This document shows, piece after piece, positions 3,400-19,647 of a stretch of 20,809 bases of DNA. A model generated the notes under the pieces. That model made no database searches and was not told the DNA's origin. It worked only from the letters and a program-made list of their open reading frames with translations. The DNA is taken from positions 1 through 20,809 of IMG/VR virus record IMGVR_UViG_3300025168_000849; one strand, written 5' to 3'. This DNA comes from a virus. The first letter of the stretch is position 1. Each line of letters starts with the position of its first letter. Made by a program: the position numbers and the translations under genes.

Positions 3400-3526
3400 A
3401 ATCTTTTTTCCTTACAAATATATAAACTGTGAAACATAGGAAACCGAACGTTACTATGTTGGGGGCAAAGAAGAAACTCAAAGCTCCCATAATATAAAAT
3501 CCATACACACATATGTATGTTACCAA
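3377..3526 (-). CDS. Small two-helix membrane protein, probable TTG start
   Basis: A short reading frame of 49 residues if it begins at the TTG at 3526, or 37 residues from the ATG at 3490. Two hydrophobic stretches (VTYICVYGFYIMGALSFFFA, then NIVTFGFLCFTVYIFV) are followed by a basic-acidic tail RKKDYEKEKEK, a membrane hairpin with positive residues next to the membrane. A GGTGG element precedes the TTG and the start overlaps the previous gene's stop by seven bases. It fills what would otherwise be a 120-base gap. No homologue recognised; the composition rather than a known motif supports it. Confidence 0.5.
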   Translation of the reverse strand: MVTYICVYGFYIMGALSFFFAPNIVTFGFLCFTVYIFVRKKDYEKEKEK

Positions 3527-3963
3527 TCCACCGAGTGTTGCCATTCTTGGTATCCTTTCTCCTCAATAATATTTCTTAGTGATAGCTGTGAATCTGCCAC
3601 AGCACCACGATTACAGTTAACAAACATCAACGCATTAGTGATGTTACCTTCTTCGTTAATAACATCAGCTATGTGTGGTGTGTAGTTCGCATTGGTTTCC
3701 ATTTGATTAATACATTCCACTGCTCGTACATCACACTCATACAGATGACCTTTGATTGACTTGCCTTCTGCTTGTCCATAGTCAAAGAACACAATAGGAA
3801 ATGCGTTAGCATAATCTCTCATCTGAAAGACCGAGTGTACGGTAAAGTATTCTCCCATATACTCAGACCTCTTTGTTAGTTCCTCAAGTCTGCCCCCTTT
3901 TTTTAATGTGCCATATGTAAAAAGCCTAGTCTTATAAGCCTCTTGCAACAGTGGGTTTGCCAT
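3520..3963 (-). CDS. Gamma-glutamylcyclotransferase-like (AIG2/GGCT fold) protein
   Basis: From the ATG at 3963 the product has 147 residues. The diagnostic loop FTYGTLKKGG (residues 15-24) matches the YGxLxxG substrate-binding loop of the GGCT/AIG2 superfamily, and INQMETNANY holds the candidate catalytic Glu89 followed by the conserved Tyr. Enzymes of this fold release 5-oxoproline from gamma-glutamyl amines or amino acids. A TTG start at 3978 with a better spaced AAGGAGG site would add five residues; either start overlaps the preceding gene. It shares the leftward arm with an amidoligase and a class II amidotransferase, a combination consistent with gamma-glutamyl chemistry. The real substrate is unknown. 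Confidence 0.82.
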   Translation of the reverse strand: MANPLLQEAYKTRLFTYGTLKKGGRLEELTKRSEYMGEYFTVHSVFQMRDYANAFPIVFFDYGQAEGKSIKGHLYECDVRAVECINQMETNANYTPHIADVINEEGNITNALMFVNCNRGAVADSQLSLRNIIEEKGYQEWQHSVDW

Positions 3964-4231
3964 TTTCGTACTGCTCAATTCTTCCTCCTTCAAGATGTTG
4001 TATCTCTGTTATACAATTAGTAGGGATAACTACACCCCCACCACCTGTCTTACTTTCCTCATCATAAGATGAGACAGTTACTATCTTACCACCGAAGTCT
4101 GTAAGTATCCACCCCACAGTTTCGACAGGTCGTAGTTGTTGTTGCCTTAACTCAGACAACTCTTGCCATGTGTTATCATCTGACATTGCATCAAGCCATT
4201 TGATTCTCACTAAGTCCATTGTGTTTAGCAT
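3932..4231 (-). CDS. Hypothetical protein
   Basis: A 99-residue protein starting at the ATG at 4231 with an AAGGAG site eight bases upstream. It contains the strand-rich segment VGWILTDFGGKIVTVSSYDEE, a glycine run TGGGGVVIP, and the ending CITEIQHLEGGRIEQY, which suggests a small beta-barrel or SH3-like fold. Similar short proteins occur in marine phages as I recall, without known function. It overlaps the start of the cyclotransferase-like gene by 32 bases, which suggests coupled translation. Confidence 0.75.
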   Translation of the reverse strand: MLNTMDLVRIKWLDAMSDDNTWQELSELRQQQLRPVETVGWILTDFGGKIVTVSSYDEESKTGGGGVVIPTNCITEIQHLEGGRIEQYENGKPTVARGL

Positions 4232-4233
4232 AA

Positions 4234-4488
4234 TTATTTCTCCTTGTCAATGGGTTTCTTTTTCATTATCTCTAAGACCTTTGTCTTAAAGTCTACTACA
4301 TTACCAGGAAACTTTGGTGATGAGTCAGGTAACTTGGGTTCCACTATGTAAGAGCCATTCTCTTTCCATGTCCTACTCGTTTGCTTTCCTTCGTTGTCAA
4401 GCACTCGTTCCCAGGCATCGTCCTTGCTGGTCGCCTCGACTTCGTAGGTACACTCAAGTGTTTCCCAAGTTGTTACATTATACTTCAT
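4234..4488 (-). CDS. Small beta-beta-alpha protein, possible paralogue of the 1861-2121 product
   Basis: An 84-residue protein. The first 35 residues (MKYNVTTWETLECTYEVEAT, then SKDDAWERVL) form two strands and a helix with the VEAxSKxxA core also seen in the gene at 1861-2121. The remainder (PKLPDSSPKFPGNVVDFKTK) looks extended and ends in a basic helix. The pattern recalls DpnD/PcfM-like proteins, whose function is poorly known. It starts at 4488, eleven bases inside the previous gene, with an AAGGAATAACT-type site, and is two bases from the next start. Confidence 0.72.
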   Translation of the reverse strand: MKYNVTTWETLECTYEVEATSKDDAWERVLDNEGKQTSRTWKENGSYIVEPKLPDSSPKFPGNVVDFKTKVLEIMKKKPIDKEK

Positions 4489-4963
4489 AGTTATTCCTTT
4501 CTTGCATTTGTCTTTCCCATTCTAAATCAAAACTTTCCCAGGTGTTAGCCTCATCGTTACCTGCAGCTTGGTGCAGCTCAGCTGTAATCCTGGATGCTCG
4601 CTTTCTTTGAGCCTCTAGTCTGCGTCTAGCCTTATCTCTTTTCGCAATGAAGTTAGGGTCAATGCTAAACAGTACTCGTCTGCCTACCTTACTAACCTTA
4701 ACACGATAAGGCTCAGCGTCTACGAGTTGTTGGTTGAGCCAGTTATCCCACTTACGCTTATGTTCTTTGGCGTGTACTGGGTAGCGAAGCCTGTAATACC
4801 TGGGCTTGCCATCAGCATTGACAGGTCTGATGAATGTATCAATCACATCAGTGCCTACTCGTATGCACTCCTCGTCTACGACATTGTCATCTTCATCATA
4901 GACAGGGTCGTATAATGGGGACTGATACCTAATTTGTTCTGCCCCCTTGATTAGTGGATTCAT
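4478..4963 (-). CDS. Hypothetical protein with basic coiled-coil C-terminus
   Basis: A 161-residue protein. Residues 1-45 include an acidic stretch (DPVYDEDDNVVDEE). Residues 46-105 (RPVNADGKPRYYRLRYPVHA onward) look like a mixed alpha/beta domain. Residues 106-161 form a basic, then acidic helix (AKRDKARRRLEAQRKRASRI). The start at 4963 lies one base after the stop of a tiny membrane gene and has an AAGGAGA site. The basic helix could bind nucleic acid, but no specific motif is present. No family recognised. Confidence 0.72.
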   Translation of the reverse strand: MNPLIKGAEQIRYQSPLYDPVYDEDDNVVDEECIRVGTDVIDTFIRPVNADGKPRYYRLRYPVHAKEHKRKWDNWLNQQLVDAEPYRVKVSKVGRRVLFSIDPNFIAKRDKARRRLEAQRKRASRITAELHQAAGNDEANTWESFDLEWERQMQERNNYEV

Positions 4964-4964
4964 C

Positions 4965-5084
4965 TTAGTCTCCTTTTGCTTTGCGTTCTAGTGTCATACG
5001 TACATCATGTACGATAACGAAAGTCCAATAAAATAATGGTAGTGAAATCACTCCACTCAAATAAATAATAATAGATAGTAACAT
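4965..5084 (-). CDS. Small single-pass membrane protein of 39 residues
   Basis: This short gene starts at the ATG at 5084 with a strong GAGGAGAG site and ends one base before the following gene. Residues 2-25 are hydrophobic (LLSIIIYLSGVISLPLFYW) and the tail (RMTLERKAKGD) is basic, giving a likely N-out/C-in single helix. It is the first gene downstream of the 294-base non-coding gap and so probably the first gene of the second leftward transcription unit. Function unknown. Confidence 0.65.
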   Translation of the reverse strand: MLLSIIIYLSGVISLPLFYWTFVIVHDVRMTLERKAKGD

Positions 5085-5183
5085 AATTTTCTCTCCTCGT
5101 CAATAGTTTTTTCTCGGCTGTACATGGGTGTACATGGCATTACACGAGGGTACCTACTTTTGGTGAACAGGCACACCCCTCTC

Positions 5184-5237
5184 TAATATACAATTTAAAA
5201 TATATATATATATTTATATATACTATATATAGTATAA
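5184..5237. repeat. AT-rich tract, mostly alternating TA
   Basis: Nearly pure A/T sequence including runs of alternating TA, located almost exactly between the two box arrays. Such a tract melts easily; it could be an unwinding element or provide a -10 region for a leftward promoter. It could also be a simple low-complexity repeat. Confidence 0.7.
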
Positions 5238-5269
5238 GGGTAGTGTACCCTACACAAGACGACCTTGTG
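5237..5269. repeat. Two adjacent small hairpins
   Basis: AGGGTA, 3 bases, TACCCT (5237-5251) is followed immediately by CACAAG, 5 bases, CTTGTG (5253-5269). Both are perfect 6-bp stems. They sit beside the AT-rich tract inside the paired box arrays. Neither is followed by a T-run, so they are more likely operators or origin hairpins than terminators. Confidence 0.6.
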
Positions 5270-5353
5270 CCACCTCATTGTAATATTGGTAACCCTCGTG
5301 TTCAGTCATGTTCTTCCATGTATAGTCGGGTTGTATCCTGCAACCTCATGTTG

Positions 5354-5368
5354 CCTGGATAATCCAGG
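5354..5368. repeat. 15-base palindrome
   Basis: CCTGGAT, one base, ATCCAGG, perfect on both sides. It lies just after the stop of the gene ending at 5379 on the leftward strand. It could be an operator half-site pair or a weak mRNA 3' hairpin; no T-run is present. Confidence 0.5.
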
Positions 5369-5378
5369 GGAAGAGCAG

Positions 5379-6029
5379 CTACGCTGCCGCATCAACTCTT
5401 TCCTGGATAGTATGTCTCCATGTTGGGTTTATCCTGTCGTGATGTTCCCACCATGTATGTGCTGTTGCCCCCTCATTAAACACTTGGTGGTGTTGTTGGG
5501 CACTGAATCTCATAGCTTTGACAGGGTGTGGTTGATAGTACATAGGTCTACCTAATTCATTCCCATTACCTAGCATGTTCCATGTAGGAAATTTTCTGTG
5601 GCTTTCATATCTGTATGTACCATGTGTAACAGGGTTAGACCTAACCAAATCAAATGTACCATTGTCCTCATAAGACTTGACAAGACTTGGGTATGATTGC
5701 CAGAATGTAGCACCATACTTATAGAATAGTTTGTTGACTAGACTATTTACTTTTGGTCTATCCTCTGACATTATGTTATCGTACTCATCTTGCGATAGTT
5801 CAGTACCTTTGATAGCTATACCATAATCTTTGTCGGTGTATAGTGAGAAAGGTTTTCGGCGAAACGAAGTTTTCTCTGGGTCAAAGGGGTGTTGACACAC
5901 CCCAAATTGTACATCTTTTAAATAGACTTGTCTAATTAGTGTTGTCCACTTTAACTTATTAGACCCACCATTTCTAGTAGTTATCTCATAAAAGTTTTTA
6001 GTTTCTAAATCAAATCTAAATATAGTCAT
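5379..6029 (-). CDS. Hypothetical protein downstream of the amidotransferase
   Basis: A 216-residue protein I do not recognise. It begins MTIFRFDLETKNFYEITTRN and looks like a beta-rich domain, with a helix near residues 80-110 (DEYDNIMSEDRPKVNSLVNK) and a His- and Trp-rich end (AQQHHQVF, HTWWEHHDRINPTW). The start at 6029 is one base after the stop of the class II amidotransferase-like gene, with a GGGAGGA site, so it is co-translated with it. The histidines could bind a metal, but no known pattern fits. Its position makes it a candidate partner of the amidoligase/amidotransferase pair. Confidence 0.75.
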   Translation of the reverse strand: MTIFRFDLETKNFYEITTRNGGSNKLKWTTLIRQVYLKDVQFGVCQHPFDPEKTSFRRKPFSLYTDKDYGIAIKGTELSQDEYDNIMSEDRPKVNSLVNKLFYKYGATFWQSYPSLVKSYEDNGTFDLVRSNPVTHGTYRYESHRKFPTWNMLGNGNELGRPMYYQPHPVKAMRFSAQQHHQVFNEGATAHTWWEHHDRINPTWRHTIQERVDAAA

Positions 6030-6030
6030 G

Positions 6031-6951
6031 TTACTTTCCTCCCTTTACTTCGCTGTTATACACAAGGTCATGCAACCATTGTGATACGCCAGTTGGATTT
6101 TCATATACAACTTCCTCAATTTCTTTGTATGTCATACCATACAAATCATTCTCATCTAAAGCTGTCCCTTCTTCAAGTATGTCTCTTGGTGGATTGACAT
6201 AGTTTTTGGTAGTGTTATCCTTAGTCTCTACATGAGTACGATAGATTGGTGTACCAGAGTAATGACCCATACCATAACCCCAATCATCATCTTCGTAAGT
6301 CCACTTGTTCTCTATCTTTTTTAGAGTGTCAGTATCTTCATCATACTTGTAGTCTCTAGACAAAGCATAGTTACCTCGTGGCTCTAATGAGTATGTGTTT
6401 GACAACCACATATCATCTGTTGTTTTTCCCTGGTCTTCGTTGATGATAGTAAACTCCTCTGTCTTACTATCCAGGAACAAGAGCTTGTCACTACCAATCA
6501 TATCAGACAACATCTCTTGCCAATCTGGATTGTATAGTAACTCTGGCTCATTGATTAGTTGTGGTCTGAGTATCCACTTGACAAACTGATGAGTATCAGA
6601 TTTGTTACTGTCAATCATGGGTGTAGGTAACTGAGGTCCATTGTGCATGAGCCATATATCTCTGTTACTTTCCTCTTTAGTTAATACCTGGTAAGGGTGT
6701 GACATAGCTTTGCTTGACTCCCCATTGGTATTGAATCTGAAATGTAAACCCATAGGCACATCTAGATTTTTGTAGCTATCCCATAGCTTGTTGATAGACT
6801 TGAATGATTTTGGCTTACCCAATTTGTGAACATGAACTTTGCCCTTGTTGGCAAACATAAGTCCAAACCCATCATCATTATTTAAGTATGCACAGTTCAT
6901 CATATTCTCTGTGATTACTTCTGGTTTTGTAGCTTGTATAATTAAGCACAT
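6031..6951 (-). CDS. Class II glutamine amidotransferase-like (Ntn hydrolase) protein
   Basis: A 306-residue protein starting MCLIIQ, so that Cys2 becomes the N-terminal nucleophile after Met removal. Canonical class II (GATase II) motifs follow in order: NNDDGFG (24-30), HFRFNTNG (70-77), the HP pair at 85-86, LMHNG (101-105) and SDTHQF (118-123). The family hydrolyses Gln to release ammonia for a partner enzyme; related Ntn enzymes act as amidases or peptidases. The remaining 180 residues, including an acidic DEDTDTL and YEDDDWGYG stretch, are not recognised. It lies 18 bases downstream of the amidoligase gene, which suggests they work together, either feeding ammonia or trimming amide bonds. 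No synthetase domain is fused to it. Confidence 0.88.
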   Translation of the reverse strand: MCLIIQATKPEVITENMMNCAYLNNDDGFGLMFANKGKVHVHKLGKPKSFKSINKLWDSYKNLDVPMGLHFRFNTNGESSKAMSHPYQVLTKEESNRDIWLMHNGPQLPTPMIDSNKSDTHQFVKWILRPQLINEPELLYNPDWQEMLSDMIGSDKLLFLDSKTEEFTIINEDQGKTTDDMWLSNTYSLEPRGNYALSRDYKYDEDTDTLKKIENKWTYEDDDWGYGMGHYSGTPIYRTHVETKDNTTKNYVNPPRDILEEGTALDENDLYGMTYKEIEEVVYENPTGVSQWLHDLVYNSEVKGGK

Positions 6952-6969
6952 AATATAACTCCTTTTCAG

Positions 6970-8178
6970 TTAAGCTATTTCTCTTAGATTGTTCTGCTCA
7001 TCAGACCAATCAACACTACGACTTGGCTTACCTATGCAATAGGATTTTCTTGTTAGCCAACCATAGAATATCTTATACTCACTTCTATTTTGTGGTAACT
7101 CCATGTATCTTATGAAGTCTTTATAAGATAGTTTTGTCATGCTCGTAGTCTTACTAAACCCTACTAAAGCATGGACAAATTCCATTACTCTGAACAAACC
7201 TTGCTTAGCAAGATTGCCCTTGAATATTCTAAACTCGATTGTATGTCGGTGCGACATATTGACAGCCTCATACTTCTCAGATGAATTTACAGCATCAGAA
7301 ATCTTCTTGCTAGATTTCTTTGCCCATTGGTCTGAATTGCGACCTGCAATATGATTCACAAACTCCTCATTTTTGTAGTCATTGATAAAGACAAGTAGCT
7401 TACCAATATCAAGCTGTGTTAAATGATTTCTTGATATGTGTATGTGCATACCTGTTGTATCAGTATTCCAGGATTTGAGGTGCTTGATTGCAGCTCCATT
7501 TAAAAATGTATGCCAATTCTCTCTATGAGCATTGAGTGTGGCTGGTGCTGTGACAATCTCAAAGCCATTGGATAGTGAGCCATCAGATTTCATAATAGCA
7601 AACTGTCCTGTCTTACCATTATAAAAATCATTGTGTGTCATTTCTCCAATCTCATAAGGACAATTATTTCTTCTCTCAACTTCTAACTCTACACCCATAT
7701 ATAGGGGGTATAGTTCTGTCCTGTCCTTGTCTGATACTTGGTAACTACAATGTGACATTACATCTTCATTGTATTCATAGATATAATCATCATGCTGTGA
7801 TTCAGATTCCTCATCATAATAATCATCTTCGCTTACATATGTATCTCTGTTCTCTGAGTATCTGTAATTGTCAATACAATTAGAACATATAGGGTTATCA
7901 TCATAAGCCCACCTTACATCATCTTCATATTCCCAGGAACCACAATCCTCACACTTACTAAATCTGTCAATGGCATCACCGAAAAGATTAGTGAGCCTTC
8001 TGTATCTTGTCATGTCATTTCGTATGAAATATCTTGATAACATTCTATCAACATCATTAAGAAAATCAACCTCGATATCATGACTATCTACAAACTCATC
8101 ATACTTTAGTTTACATAGATATGAATACATACTATCATCATTATAGTCTGTACTTCTCAGTTCTGATAGTAAAGTCAT
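6970..8178 (-). CDS. Amidoligase (GS-like COOH-NH2 ligase) with N-terminal zinc ribbon
   Basis: From the ATG at 8178 the product has 402 residues. Cys76, Cys79, Cys98 and Cys101 (CEDCG...CSNC) form a zinc ribbon, followed by an acidic Tyr-rich linker (about 110-145). The ligase core has the family signatures: GVELEVE (162-168), KSDGSLSNGFEIVTAP (197-212), GMHIHIS (243-249) and HTIEFRIFKGNL (312-323). These are the metal- and ATP-binding glutamates, aspartate, histidines and arginine of the putative amidoligase family, which forms amide bonds from a carboxylate and an amine using ATP. The start overlaps the stop of a 55-residue gene by four bases (ATGA); a GTG at 8190 is less likely. The next gene encodes a class II amidotransferase. 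The substrate is unknown. Confidence 0.88.
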   Translation of the reverse strand: MTLLSELRSTDYNDDSMYSYLCKLKYDEFVDSHDIEVDFLNDVDRMLSRYFIRNDMTRYRRLTNLFGDAIDRFSKCEDCGSWEYEDDVRWAYDDNPICSNCIDNYRYSENRDTYVSEDDYYDEESESQHDDYIYEYNEDVMSHCSYQVSDKDRTELYPLYMGVELEVERRNNCPYEIGEMTHNDFYNGKTGQFAIMKSDGSLSNGFEIVTAPATLNAHRENWHTFLNGAAIKHLKSWNTDTTGMHIHISRNHLTQLDIGKLLVFINDYKNEEFVNHIAGRNSDQWAKKSSKKISDAVNSSEKYEAVNMSHRHTIEFRIFKGNLAKQGLFRVMEFVHALVGFSKTTSMTKLSYKDFIRYMELPQNRSEYKIFYGWLTRKSYCIGKPSRSVDWSDEQNNLREIA

Positions 8179-18607: not shown

Positions 18608-18613
18608 AATCTT

Positions 18614-18630
18614 GACTGCCGAAAGGAGTC
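18614..18630 (+). promoter_or_regulatory. Short 5'-leader hairpin with GAAA loop
   Basis: GACTGCC, GAAA, GGAGTC forms a six-pair stem with one bulged base at the predicted 5' end of the chaperone mRNA. It may protect the transcript end. It does not cover the ribosome site at about 18651, so a thermosensor role is not evident. Confidence 0.4.
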
Positions 18631-18662
18631 ACGATTTAATTTCGCTTAACAAGGAGGTTACT

Positions 18663-19076
18663 ATGATTAAATCACTCGTAGATTGGGAACCATATAAACC
18701 ATTCACAGTTGGGTTTGATTCTTTATTGGATAGACTACAAACTTTAGAATTGGATGTTCCTAATTACCCACCATATAATATTCGTAAGATTGATGAATTA
18801 AAGTATTCTATTGATTTAGCATTAGCTGGATTCGGTAAGAAAGACGTATCAATTAATTATGCGGATAATTCATTAACAATTAAATCTAAACCAAATGATA
18901 AAAAAGCCGACGATGTCGTACACCGTGGCATATCTCAACGCGCGTTTACGCGTACGTTTGCATTAGCAGATGATGTAGTAGTCAATGAGGCTAAGTTTGA
19001 GAACGGATTATTATCTATTGAATTAGAGAAAATTGTACCTGAGGAGAAGAGGCCGAAGGAAATAAAAATAAAATAA
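18663..19076 (+). CDS. Hsp20/IbpA-type small heat-shock chaperone
   Basis: A 137-residue alpha-crystallin-type protein, starting at the ATG at 18663 after an AAGGAGG site. The core (YPPYNIRKIDELKYSIDLAL at residues 35-54, then AGFGKKDVSINY) matches IbpA closely; the diagnostic ENGLLSIEL lies at 113-121 and an IxI anchor (IKI) at 134-136 near the C-terminus. Such chaperones hold unfolding proteins without ATP. It is the first gene after a consensus promoter and is followed by a GroES-like gene, so the two may aid capsid folding or protect infected cells. Host-derived origin is possible, but base composition looks like its neighbours. Confidence 0.92.
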   Translation: MIKSLVDWEPYKPFTVGFDSLLDRLQTLELDVPNYPPYNIRKIDELKYSIDLALAGFGKKDVSINYADNSLTIKSKPNDKKADDVVHRGISQRAFTRTFALADDVVVNEAKFENGLLSIELEKIVPEEKRPKEIKIK

Positions 19077-19118: not shown

Positions 19119-19319
19119 ATGGCTACAGCCAACGACTACAAAGATAGATTATCTAAAATAATAGAGGAATCTATACAAGCTAATACTGCTCAAATCCTAC
19201 AAGGTGCTTCCACTATGGAAGATTATAAGTACATGCTAGGTATTCAACATACTCTAGGTGATCTCAAAGAAAGATTACAATCAGAACTTATTAAACTAAT
19301 AAAGGATTCACATGAGTAA
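19119..19319 (+). CDS. Small helical phage protein
   Basis: A 66-residue, mostly helical protein beginning MATANDYKDRLSKIIEESIQ, with a central segment LQGASTMEDYKYMLGIQHTL. Short phage proteins of this form (helix, 'YKYxxGxxxxL', helix) are common near structural genes, function unknown. A strong AGGAGG site precedes the ATG. It overlaps the next start by eight bases, so it is probably translated together with the GroES-like protein. Confidence 0.75.
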   Translation: MATANDYKDRLSKIIEESIQANTAQILQGASTMEDYKYMLGIQHTLGDLKERLQSELIKLIKDSHE

Positions 19320-19647
19320 GAAAAATCTACCAAAACCCGCAGGTTATAGGCTATTACTAAAGCCAAGAGAAATAGAAAACAAAACTGCAGGGGGCATTAT
19401 ATTAACTGACGAACTAGTAGAGCATGCTAAATTCTCATGCGTCATATCACAGATTATTGACATGGGACCTGATGCATACAAAGATCACAACAAAGCTAAC
19501 ACTGAATGGGCTAAGATTGGGGACTGGGTATTGACAGGAAAGTATGTAGGACTTAAGTTTGTATATGAGAAAGAAACATATTCAGTTATAAATGATGATG
19601 AAATCATAGCTATTGTACCTGATCCTTCAAAGATTAGTGCGAAATAG
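19312..19647 (+). CDS. groES: GroES-like co-chaperonin
   Basis: A 111-residue Cpn10 homologue. The N-terminus PKPAGYRLLLKPREIENKTA leads into the mobile loop with GGIIL at residues 27-31, which contacts GroEL. The barrel strands follow (KFSCVISQIIDMGPDAYKD; KIGDWVLTGKYVGLKFVYEK) and the end DDEIIAIV is typical. It should cap the host GroEL ring and may enlarge or adapt the chamber for phage capsid proteins, like T4 gp31. It overlaps the previous gene by eight bases and belongs to the hsp20 transcript. The next gene is the scaffold. Confidence 0.92.
   Translation: MSKKNLPKPAGYRLLLKPREIENKTAGGIILTDELVEHAKFSCVISQIIDMGPDAYKDHNKANTEWAKIGDWVLTGKYVGLKFVYEKETYSVINDDEIIAIVPDPSKISAK

Follow-up and report, generated by a model that had tools for sequence, protein, structure and literature searches.

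A near-constant amidoligase and class II amidotransferase pair, with a cyclotransferase as looser partner, in a marine phage genome fragment

The amidoligase and the glutamine amidotransferase (GATase) that are encoded side by side in a fragment of a marine phage genome form one unit, with a gamma-glutamyl cyclotransferase (GGCT) as a looser partner, and this pair recurs almost without exception, as a core that phages share with mobile elements of bacteria. The fragment is the IMG/VR record IMGVR_UViG_3300025168_000849, of which positions 1 to 20,809 (20,809 nt), hereafter the window, were analysed as a whole. Comparable sets of genes have been described from other phages, and the locus is mostly known in kind.

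The genes of this locus lie on the minus strand in one arm. A zinc-ribbon, GS-fold amidoligase of the Amidoligase_2 type with 402 aa (6970..8178) was recognized from its ORF, Pfam, PHROG, alignment and a structure model, and it is followed by a GATase of class II, with N-terminal Cys and 306 aa (6031..6951; ORF, motifs and family profile). The ORF of a basic 216-aa protein without fold or function match (5379..6029) lies 1 bp past the GATase gene, and a GGCT-like protein (GGCT/GGACT, PF06094) of 147 aa, regarded as accessory, is encoded at 3520..3963 (ORF, Pfam). A translation check showed the ORFs of amidoligase, GATase and GGCT to be open at these coordinates, and key residues are kept in relatives, in agreement with the first-pass annotation, which had placed the three genes in one arm. 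Its distances were confirmed as well: the gap between amidoligase and GATase measures 18 bp, and the GGCT, described as 2 kb away, lies about 2.07 kb further downstream from the GATase. As ORFs, profile matches and conserved motifs were all confirmed, this trio is more than a chance arrangement. A stretch of 415 bp (4964..5378, minus strand) separates the amidoligase, GATase and 216-aa genes from the next ones; it is kept in all three close relatives aligned, and includes a palindromic AT-rich segment (5197-5236) and a 39-aa ORF (4965-5084). It is probably a control region. Promoter and terminator scans gave signals no higher than shuffles, the Rfam and tRNA scans returned no matches, and a PADLOC scan of the three window proteins returned no families at E <= 1e-5.

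The product of 6970-8178 is a GS-like amidoligase with a zinc ribbon. By itself it matches Pfam Amidoligase_2 with E 8.9e-4 and 19.6 bits, below the cut-off of 22, and in the PHROG scan it matches phrog_16683 with 6.6e-30, while all 18 aligned amidoligase rows, that of the window included, reach E <= 0.1 against PF12224, the best of them 1.4e-11; the amidoligase profile gave no matches to PDB sequences. The structure predicted by AlphaFold (mean pLDDT 86) has a GS fold over about residues 151-402, with YbdK at Z 12.7 and glutamine synthetases up to Z 12.4, and Foldseek matched the YbdK-like 1tt4 with E 7.2e-6 at a low whole-model TM near 0.33. The residues E164, E166, D199, S201, E207, H245, H247, R280, E315 and R317 are present in 44 of 44 viral amidoligase rows, as judged by alignment; we take the acid, HxH and E-x-R motifs to have the same roles as in GS-like amidoligases. 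Broken catalytic sites, which would have spoken against the earlier annotation, are rejected by the conservation of the key residues.

In the zinc ribbon, C76, C79 and C101 are kept in 44/44 viral rows and C98 in 37/44, and of 85 amidoligase ORFs from bacteria, 81 show a CxxC...CxxC pattern. This conservation would suit a pair that docks through the ribbon on a host protein and modifies one of its carboxylates, either by amidation or by attaching an amine, in the manner of Pup ligase or depupylase, both of which share the GS-type fold with the amidoligase, and Dop is indeed among the structural matches (E 1.3e-4; Z 10.7). YbdK and glutamine synthetases, however, match equally well or better, so that the fold is no pointer to protein substrates, and such a reaction comes without a candidate target protein; we regard a protein or peptide substrate of this kind as unlikely.

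Judging from its motifs and its family profile, the protein encoded at 6031-6951 is a class II glutamine amidotransferase. The window protein alone has no significant Pfam match to GATase_4 (E 0.21), which is matched by 8 of the 19 aligned GATase rows at E <= 0.1 (best 3.2e-6). Of 98 GATase ORFs, 96 carry the full set of class II motif patterns, MC, an Arg motif, HNG and [ST]DT, and the other two ORFs are truncated at contig ends. One row of the GATase alignment A2, from C. difficile phage AR1086-1, is a non-GATase and was taken out before later profiles; we infer that it is the row that matches RlaP, and the match of AR1086-1 with the A2-based profile was left uncounted. Among solved structures, the family profile is closest to PurF (1ao0, 5.6e-8). 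Together with a nuclease gene (697-1626, PDDEXK_1) and an ATPase gene (1-477, AAA_24) that Pfam finds in the same arm, the closeness to PurF could be read as a sign that these enzymes scavenge nitrogen or glutamine, or amidate nucleotides or DNA bases, in order to supply or protect phage DNA. No nucleotide-modifying partner is prominent among the bacterial neighbour families listed, which argues against such a role, and we consider it very improbable.

When the viral amidoligases were clustered at 70% identity, a GATase was found in 40 of 42 clusters, in 39 of them within 45 bp; at 50% identity it was found in 18 of 20, with 17 within 45 bp. Several viral loci are overlapping stretches of one contig, an overlap that these clustered counts are meant to offset. 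The non-adjacent case is a Rhizobium phage, with the GATase 1.3 kb downstream of the amidoligase; in two of 20 lineages, those of C. difficile phage AR1086-1 and of a Microcoleus phage, no GATase accompanies the amidoligase at the locus. Among bacterial-genome loci, the best 80 of 422 relatives and mostly from Ruminococcus and kin, the pair occurs in 74 of 80, with gaps of -106 to 226 bp. All three scanned motifs are present in 71 of these 74 GATases, and in three of the six loci lacking a GATase the sequence runs out no more than about 320 bases from where the amidoligase matches; 17 of the bacterial loci are distinct at 60% identity, and a GATase occurs in 14 of these. The distance matrices of amidoligase and GATase correlate with r 0.87 over 85 non-redundant pairs, a value that none of 2000 shuffles reached, and this correlation reflects shared descent too. 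Chance neighbours are ruled out by the pairing across lineages, and as this pairing is near-constant, the joint function postulated in the first-pass annotation is strongly supported for amidoligase and GATase.

Many bacterial pairs are near recombinase, integrase or relaxase genes, a nearness that is uncontrolled, and mobility genes dominate the bacterial neighbour families listed, which are single-linkage BLAST groups with one member each scanned; of 70 neighbour proteins selected, 69 were scanned, the one dropped being a second amidoligase copy. A few bacterial pairs are beside defence genes, a nearness likewise uncontrolled. Viral neighbours were sorted by length and four profiles only. 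The available text of the phage-cassette literature contains no account of a spread of the pair onto integrative or mobilizable elements.

The window GGCT matches PF06094 with 2.8e-7 and 31.5 bits, above the cut-off of 22.8, and YGTL and E89 are invariant in all nine aligned GGCT rows. The HMM searches that had been suggested for the three enzymes thus gave a match above cut-off for the GGCT itself, and better matches with family alignments and profiles for amidoligase and GATase. Of 27 amidoligase records, 12 have a GGCT, as against none of 27 control records selected by their terminase (Fisher p 1e-4, kinship ignored). The amidoligase records, 8 from phages and 19 viral contigs, were chosen by hand among 101 loci with an eye to length and spread, and they include one closely related pair (L010, L013). 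In Rhizobium phage N3_13, the annotated amidoligase escapes the amidoligase profile although it is PF12224-positive. The controls are 23 of 80 loci, chosen mainly as long contigs, and four named phages; they represent a sister group whose terminases are about 38-43% identical to that of the window, are not matched per record, and leave out terminase relatives of at least 74% identity (short contigs), of which at least one, L114 (the contig of L060), has an amidoligase. As 12 of the 27 controls are under 25 kb, GGCTs were counted a second time in records longer than 25 kb, which gave 11 of 26 against 0 of 15 (p 0.003, kinship ignored). At 40% identity, the groups that bear a GGCT drop to 5 of 14. 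The GGCT was not found in 15 of the 27 amidoligase records, some of which are fragments, lies at least 10 kb from the pair in two records, and was found in 0 of 80 bacterial loci with the profile of the window's phage family in the available flanks. The GGCT as a partner of the pair has moderate support.

In butirosin systems of the BtrJ/BtrG type, an amine is gamma-glutamylated and a cyclotransferase later removes the group. A phage version, with gamma-Glu put on an amine by the ligase and taken off by the GGCT, as protecting-group or metabolite chemistry, would agree with the GGCT being commoner with the amidoligase than in the controls. But it is the GATase, an ammonia donor of the glutaminase type, that constantly accompanies the ligase, whereas many loci have no cyclotransferase, so that this add-and-remove chemistry, also raised in the first-pass annotation, is left without specific support and appears improbable.

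Counterparts are found in the "peptidoglycan modification" cassette of phiEco32, LUZ24 and RIO-1, which according to the available text consists of amidoligase, GATase, ATP-grasp, COOH-NH2 ligase and cyclotransferase (PMC5498523, PMC11945000, PMC3890496), peptidoglycan as its target being a published hypothesis. Phage gene sets of this kind are traced to Iyer 2009 in PMC10580990 and to Hardies 2013 in PMC11945000 and PMC5498523; going by these citing papers, the link that the first-pass annotation ascribed to Aravind's group is real. For the phiEco32-like phage SU10, a proteomics table (PMC4281155) includes a GATase among the detected proteins, together with an ATP-grasp enzyme and a YtfP/UPF0131 protein, and therefore such genes are expressed. 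The relevant terms in the available part of the Giles interaction paper (PMC5705681) denote host proteins. Like the window, the phiEco32/LUZ24/RIO-1 cassette combines an Amidoligase_2 protein with a class II GATase and a GGCT, all encoded on one strand. In LUZ24 and phiEco32 the genes for amidoligase, GATase, ATP-grasp and GGCT are, in this order, ahead of primase/helicase with small genes interspersed, the window trio showing the same relative order. Related phages thus carry these genes together, whereas a lack of co-occurrence would have spoken against the first-pass annotation. With hhalign, the window-family profiles of amidoligase, GATase and GGCT matched the corresponding phiEco32/LUZ24 proteins with 67-96% probability, far above other cassette proteins, and the Rhizobium GATase also came first but is itself in the GATase profile. 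A COOH-NH2 ligase (PF14395) was found in 0 of 27 amidoligase records by a search of limited sensitivity, which matched LUZ24 and phiEco32 and missed the annotated RIO-1 gene, the window being a fragment. A RimK-type ATP-grasp was found in 1 of 27, below cut-off, with similarly limited sensitivity; the ATP-grasp genes annotated in LUZ24 and in Rhizobium phage N3_13 went undetected. In contrast to the cassette, the window amidoligase bears a zinc ribbon, an unrelated 216-aa gene follows the GATase, and the GGCT is about 2 kb off. The locus looks like a reduced variant of this cassette with the 216-aa gene added.

The marine OM43 phages MEP401 and MEP402 (PMC10580990) possess an adjacent homologous pair as well, at about 25-31% identity, whereas a GGCT was not detected and the 216-aa gene not found. 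The Mycobacterium phage Marvin group, represented by Raela, likewise has an adjacent amidoligase-GATase pair, with about 29% and 22% identity and no GGCT detected.

We think that amidoligase and GATase probably work as the two subunits of a single amide ligase that depends on glutamine. The N-terminal Cys of the GATase would split glutamine and release ammonia, the GS-fold amidoligase would use ATP to turn a carboxylate into an acyl phosphate, and attack by the ammonia would result in a primary amide, with the zinc ribbon probably serving as docking site for either the GATase or the acceptor. A point against this model is that free ammonium can serve as a substrate of GS-type enzymes. As described in the accessible literature, MurT/GatD would be comparable to the proposed pair in that two glutamine-fed proteins amidate a carboxylate of peptidoglycan. 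The folds of MurT/GatD are class I GATase and Mur ligase, both unlike the window's pair, and the comparison is an analogy only.

The most likely acceptor would be a carboxylate on a peptide in the envelope of the host, from a peptidoglycan stem peptide or its precursor, and we put an envelope acceptor slightly below an even chance. The zinc ribbon could equally indicate a protein or nucleic-acid acceptor, which speaks against the envelope model. Amidation would change the wall of the infected cell and might in this way, for instance, keep out other phages or tune lysis, and the accessory GGCT would trim gamma-glutamyl compounds as 5-oxoproline. The complete model, a two-subunit amide ligase acting on an envelope peptide carboxylate with an accessory GGCT, stands at about even chances. 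A broader and unlikely proposal is that the pair could serve mobile elements at large as a weapon: unrelated phages and integrative or mobilizable elements would carry it as a complete amidation module, fed by glutamine, that would alter one host target to exclude competing phages or elements; in the marine group of the window, the 216-aa protein would add specificity and the GGCT would recycle or reverse the mark. Phage amidoligase cassettes have been listed for more than a decade, and the functions in the available literature are hypotheses only; with a core of two genes, the problem narrows to expressing one two-protein enzyme and seeking a new amide. If the wall is the target, this would be a viral means of wall editing during infection.

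For the 216-aa protein (5379-6029), Pfam gave no match, PHROG a best E of 0.21 and its profile a best E of 0.064 against PDB sequences, and the predicted model (mean pLDDT 70.6) gave no matches to PDB structures at E <= 0.001; its fold is therefore unassigned, which does not imply a novel fold. A diverged COOH-NH2 ligase or ATP-grasp was rejected, since hhalign against 33 LUZ24, phiEco32, Rhizobium and Acinetobacter phage proteins gave a best probability of 0.8%. With the profile of the window's phage family, the gene was found in 0 of 80 bacterial loci in the available flanks, and it is present in 16 of 39 viral amidoligase clusters at 70% identity.

The window, a viral record of 20,809 bases, is organized in two divergent arms, and the three enzymes that the first-pass annotation had placed in the leftward arm are all present there on the (-) strand: a zinc-ribbon amidoligase of the GS fold (6970-8178), a class II glutamine amidotransferase (GATase) with an N-terminal cysteine (6031-6951), and a cyclotransferase (3520-3963). 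The window's amidoligase alone scores 19.6 bits against Pfam, below the cut-off of 22, and the same Pfam family is matched at E <= 0.1 by 18/18 rows of an amidoligase alignment that includes the window protein. Its AlphaFold model has a mean pLDDT of 86, with the GS fold starting at about residue 151; it aligns to YbdK with a Z of 12.7 (VIA-align), and Foldseek gives an E of 7.2e-6, yet a TM near 0.33. The window's GATase alone is not significant in Pfam (E 0.21), and its family profile reaches PurF at 5.6e-8. Broken catalytic sites, which had been named as an argument against a module, were not found: the presumed catalytic residues of the amidoligase are unchanged in 44/44 viral rows, and the class II motifs are present in 96/98 GATase ORFs. 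Three of the four zinc-ribbon cysteines are also invariant in the 44 viral amidoligases, and the fourth, C98, is kept in 37/44.

The amidoligase and GATase genes are separated by 18 bp, and 1 bp past the GATase starts a gene for a 216-aa protein (5379-6029, (-) strand), which is conserved in marine phages of the window's group; a purine-rich ribosome-binding site precedes both downstream starts. All 10 close-relative contigs that reach that far keep one gene order, with the 216-aa gene behind the amidoligase-GATase pair, then three small genes and last the cyclotransferase, but this is shared descent, and independent evidence has to come from distant loci. Among viral amidoligase clusters, the GATase is in the locus in 60/62 at 90% identity, 40/42 at 70% and 18/20 at 50%, and in all GATase-bearing clusters except one (a Rhizobium phage) it starts at most 45 bp from the amidoligase. 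The clusters without it are one C. difficile phage and one Microcoleus phage. In bacterial genomes, the GATase follows the amidoligase in 74 of the best 80 of 422 relatives, and three of the six remaining loci end near the amidoligase. The 216-aa gene occurs in 16/39 viral clusters at 70% identity and 4/19 at 50%, its own profile found it in 0/80 of the same bacterial loci, and the protein is without significant match in Pfam, PHROGs, the PDB and the known cassettes. As the GATase is near-constant in distant loci and the 216-aa gene is found in far fewer of them, the core of the module is two genes, amidoligase and GATase. In the C. difficile phage AR1086-1 (4674-6863), kptA lies upstream of the amidoligase, and an apparent RlaP-like RNA-repair gene takes the place of the GATase behind it.

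The cyclotransferase, which scores above its Pfam cut-off (PF06094) and retains both YGTL and a correctly placed Glu, is called an accessory of this pair. PF06094 was found in 12 of 27 amidoligase-bearing viral records, hand-picked for length and spread, corresponding to 9/19 groups at 50% amidoligase identity and 5/14 at 40%; in two records it lies at least 10 kb from the pair. In 27 phages chosen by their terminase, amidoligase, GATase and cyclotransferase were all absent; in known carriers the profiles detected 27/30 amidoligases and 28/30 GATases, one of them spurious, with PF06094 detected in the said 12 amidoligase records. The difference in PF06094 between amidoligase records and controls (Fisher p 1e-4; p 0.003 for records >25 kb) is in both cases uncorrected for descent.

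Because the GATase has no recognised synthase domain and a GS-fold ligase nearly always stands beside it, it is best read as one of the two proteins of an amide ligase, namely the subunit that would release ammonia, a reading based on the established chemistry of both families. In the predicted complex, the GATase would release ammonia and pass it to the amidoligase, so that ammonia and not glutamate is the likely amine donor. This argues against the butirosin-like scheme, in which gamma-Glu is added by the ligase and then removed by the cyclotransferase, and which we therefore disfavor. The proposed joint function is supported in part, namely for the amidoligase-GATase core, with the cyclotransferase only as an accessory. 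As acceptor acid, peptidoglycan is the guess published in three papers (PMC5498523, PMC11945000, PMC10580990); we take it to be the likeliest single class, with less than even confidence. For the phiEco32-like phage SU10, proteomic detection is reported of a GATase, an ATP-grasp enzyme and a YtfP/UPF0131 protein (PMC4281155), so such genes are expressed there. Searches of open-licence full texts yielded no experimental test of phage amidoligase action.

The module's kind is already known, and the window variant is new in detail. LUZ24 and phiEco32 carry a COOH-NH2 ligase, amidoligase, GATase, RimK-type ligase and cyclotransferase in a single run ahead of primase/helicase, RIO-1 has these five kinds in a different order, and they are likewise listed for UFV-P2 (PMC3890496). 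The window locus shares three of the five (amidoligase, GATase, cyclotransferase), whereas the COOH-NH2 and RimK-type ligases were not found in its relatives by searches that also missed some annotated controls. The gain of this analysis lies in narrowing the module to a core of two genes that is spread widely on mobile elements.

Mobility genes are often near the pair in the best 80 of 422 bacterial relatives, where neighbor BLAST groups, each named from its one scanned member, comprise serine recombinases (in 36 loci), tyrosine integrases (in 31), MobA-type relaxases (in 26) and NikA-like proteins (in 17); 69 neighbor proteins of non-redundant loci include Resolvase (9), Relaxase (4) and Phage_integrase (2) matches. 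In Polynucleobacter, the pair adjoins an integrase (L195:5681-10036) or stands between an integrase and a SIR2-like gene (L196:6095-11835). In two Ignavibacteriae loci (L192:7479-12212 and L194:7656-16659) it lies beside QatB/QatC/QatD and beside genes for a type IIG restriction enzyme, a TIR-like protein and an Argonaute-like protein, the last with a restriction-type partner. These defense-gene neighbors are few, uncontrolled cases, and an exclusion or defense role is worth testing, no more. Amidoligases in Clostridium prophages are reported in PMC11318856, and searches of open-licence full texts gave no description of mobilizable elements that bear the pair. In the genome of Ruminococcus flavefaciens strain YRD2003, the pair is present more than once, on at least four contigs (L206, L234, L252, L257). 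In the Acinetobacter phage record PX050566.1, the amidoligase profile and the GATase profile each match three times, and for each profile two of the matches score equally and lie near the record's two ends.

The rightward arm of the window encodes the small and large terminase subunits, Hsp20 (18612-19076), GroES (19312-19647) and a large protein at the portal position, both chaperone genes lying ahead of a gene that we guess to encode the scaffold. Among named phage records, the best terminase matches are 023Pt_psg01, the Pelagibacter phages HTVC027P and HTVC023P, and DSL-LC04 (37-40% identity), and in HTVC027P GroES is likewise found downstream of the terminase. In the leftward arm, a 39-aa ORF (4965-5084) with a hydrophobic N-terminal half is nearly identical in DNA across three aligned close relatives, and a palindromic AT-rich segment (5197-5236), which is perhaps part of a control region, lies inside a strongly conserved non-coding stretch.
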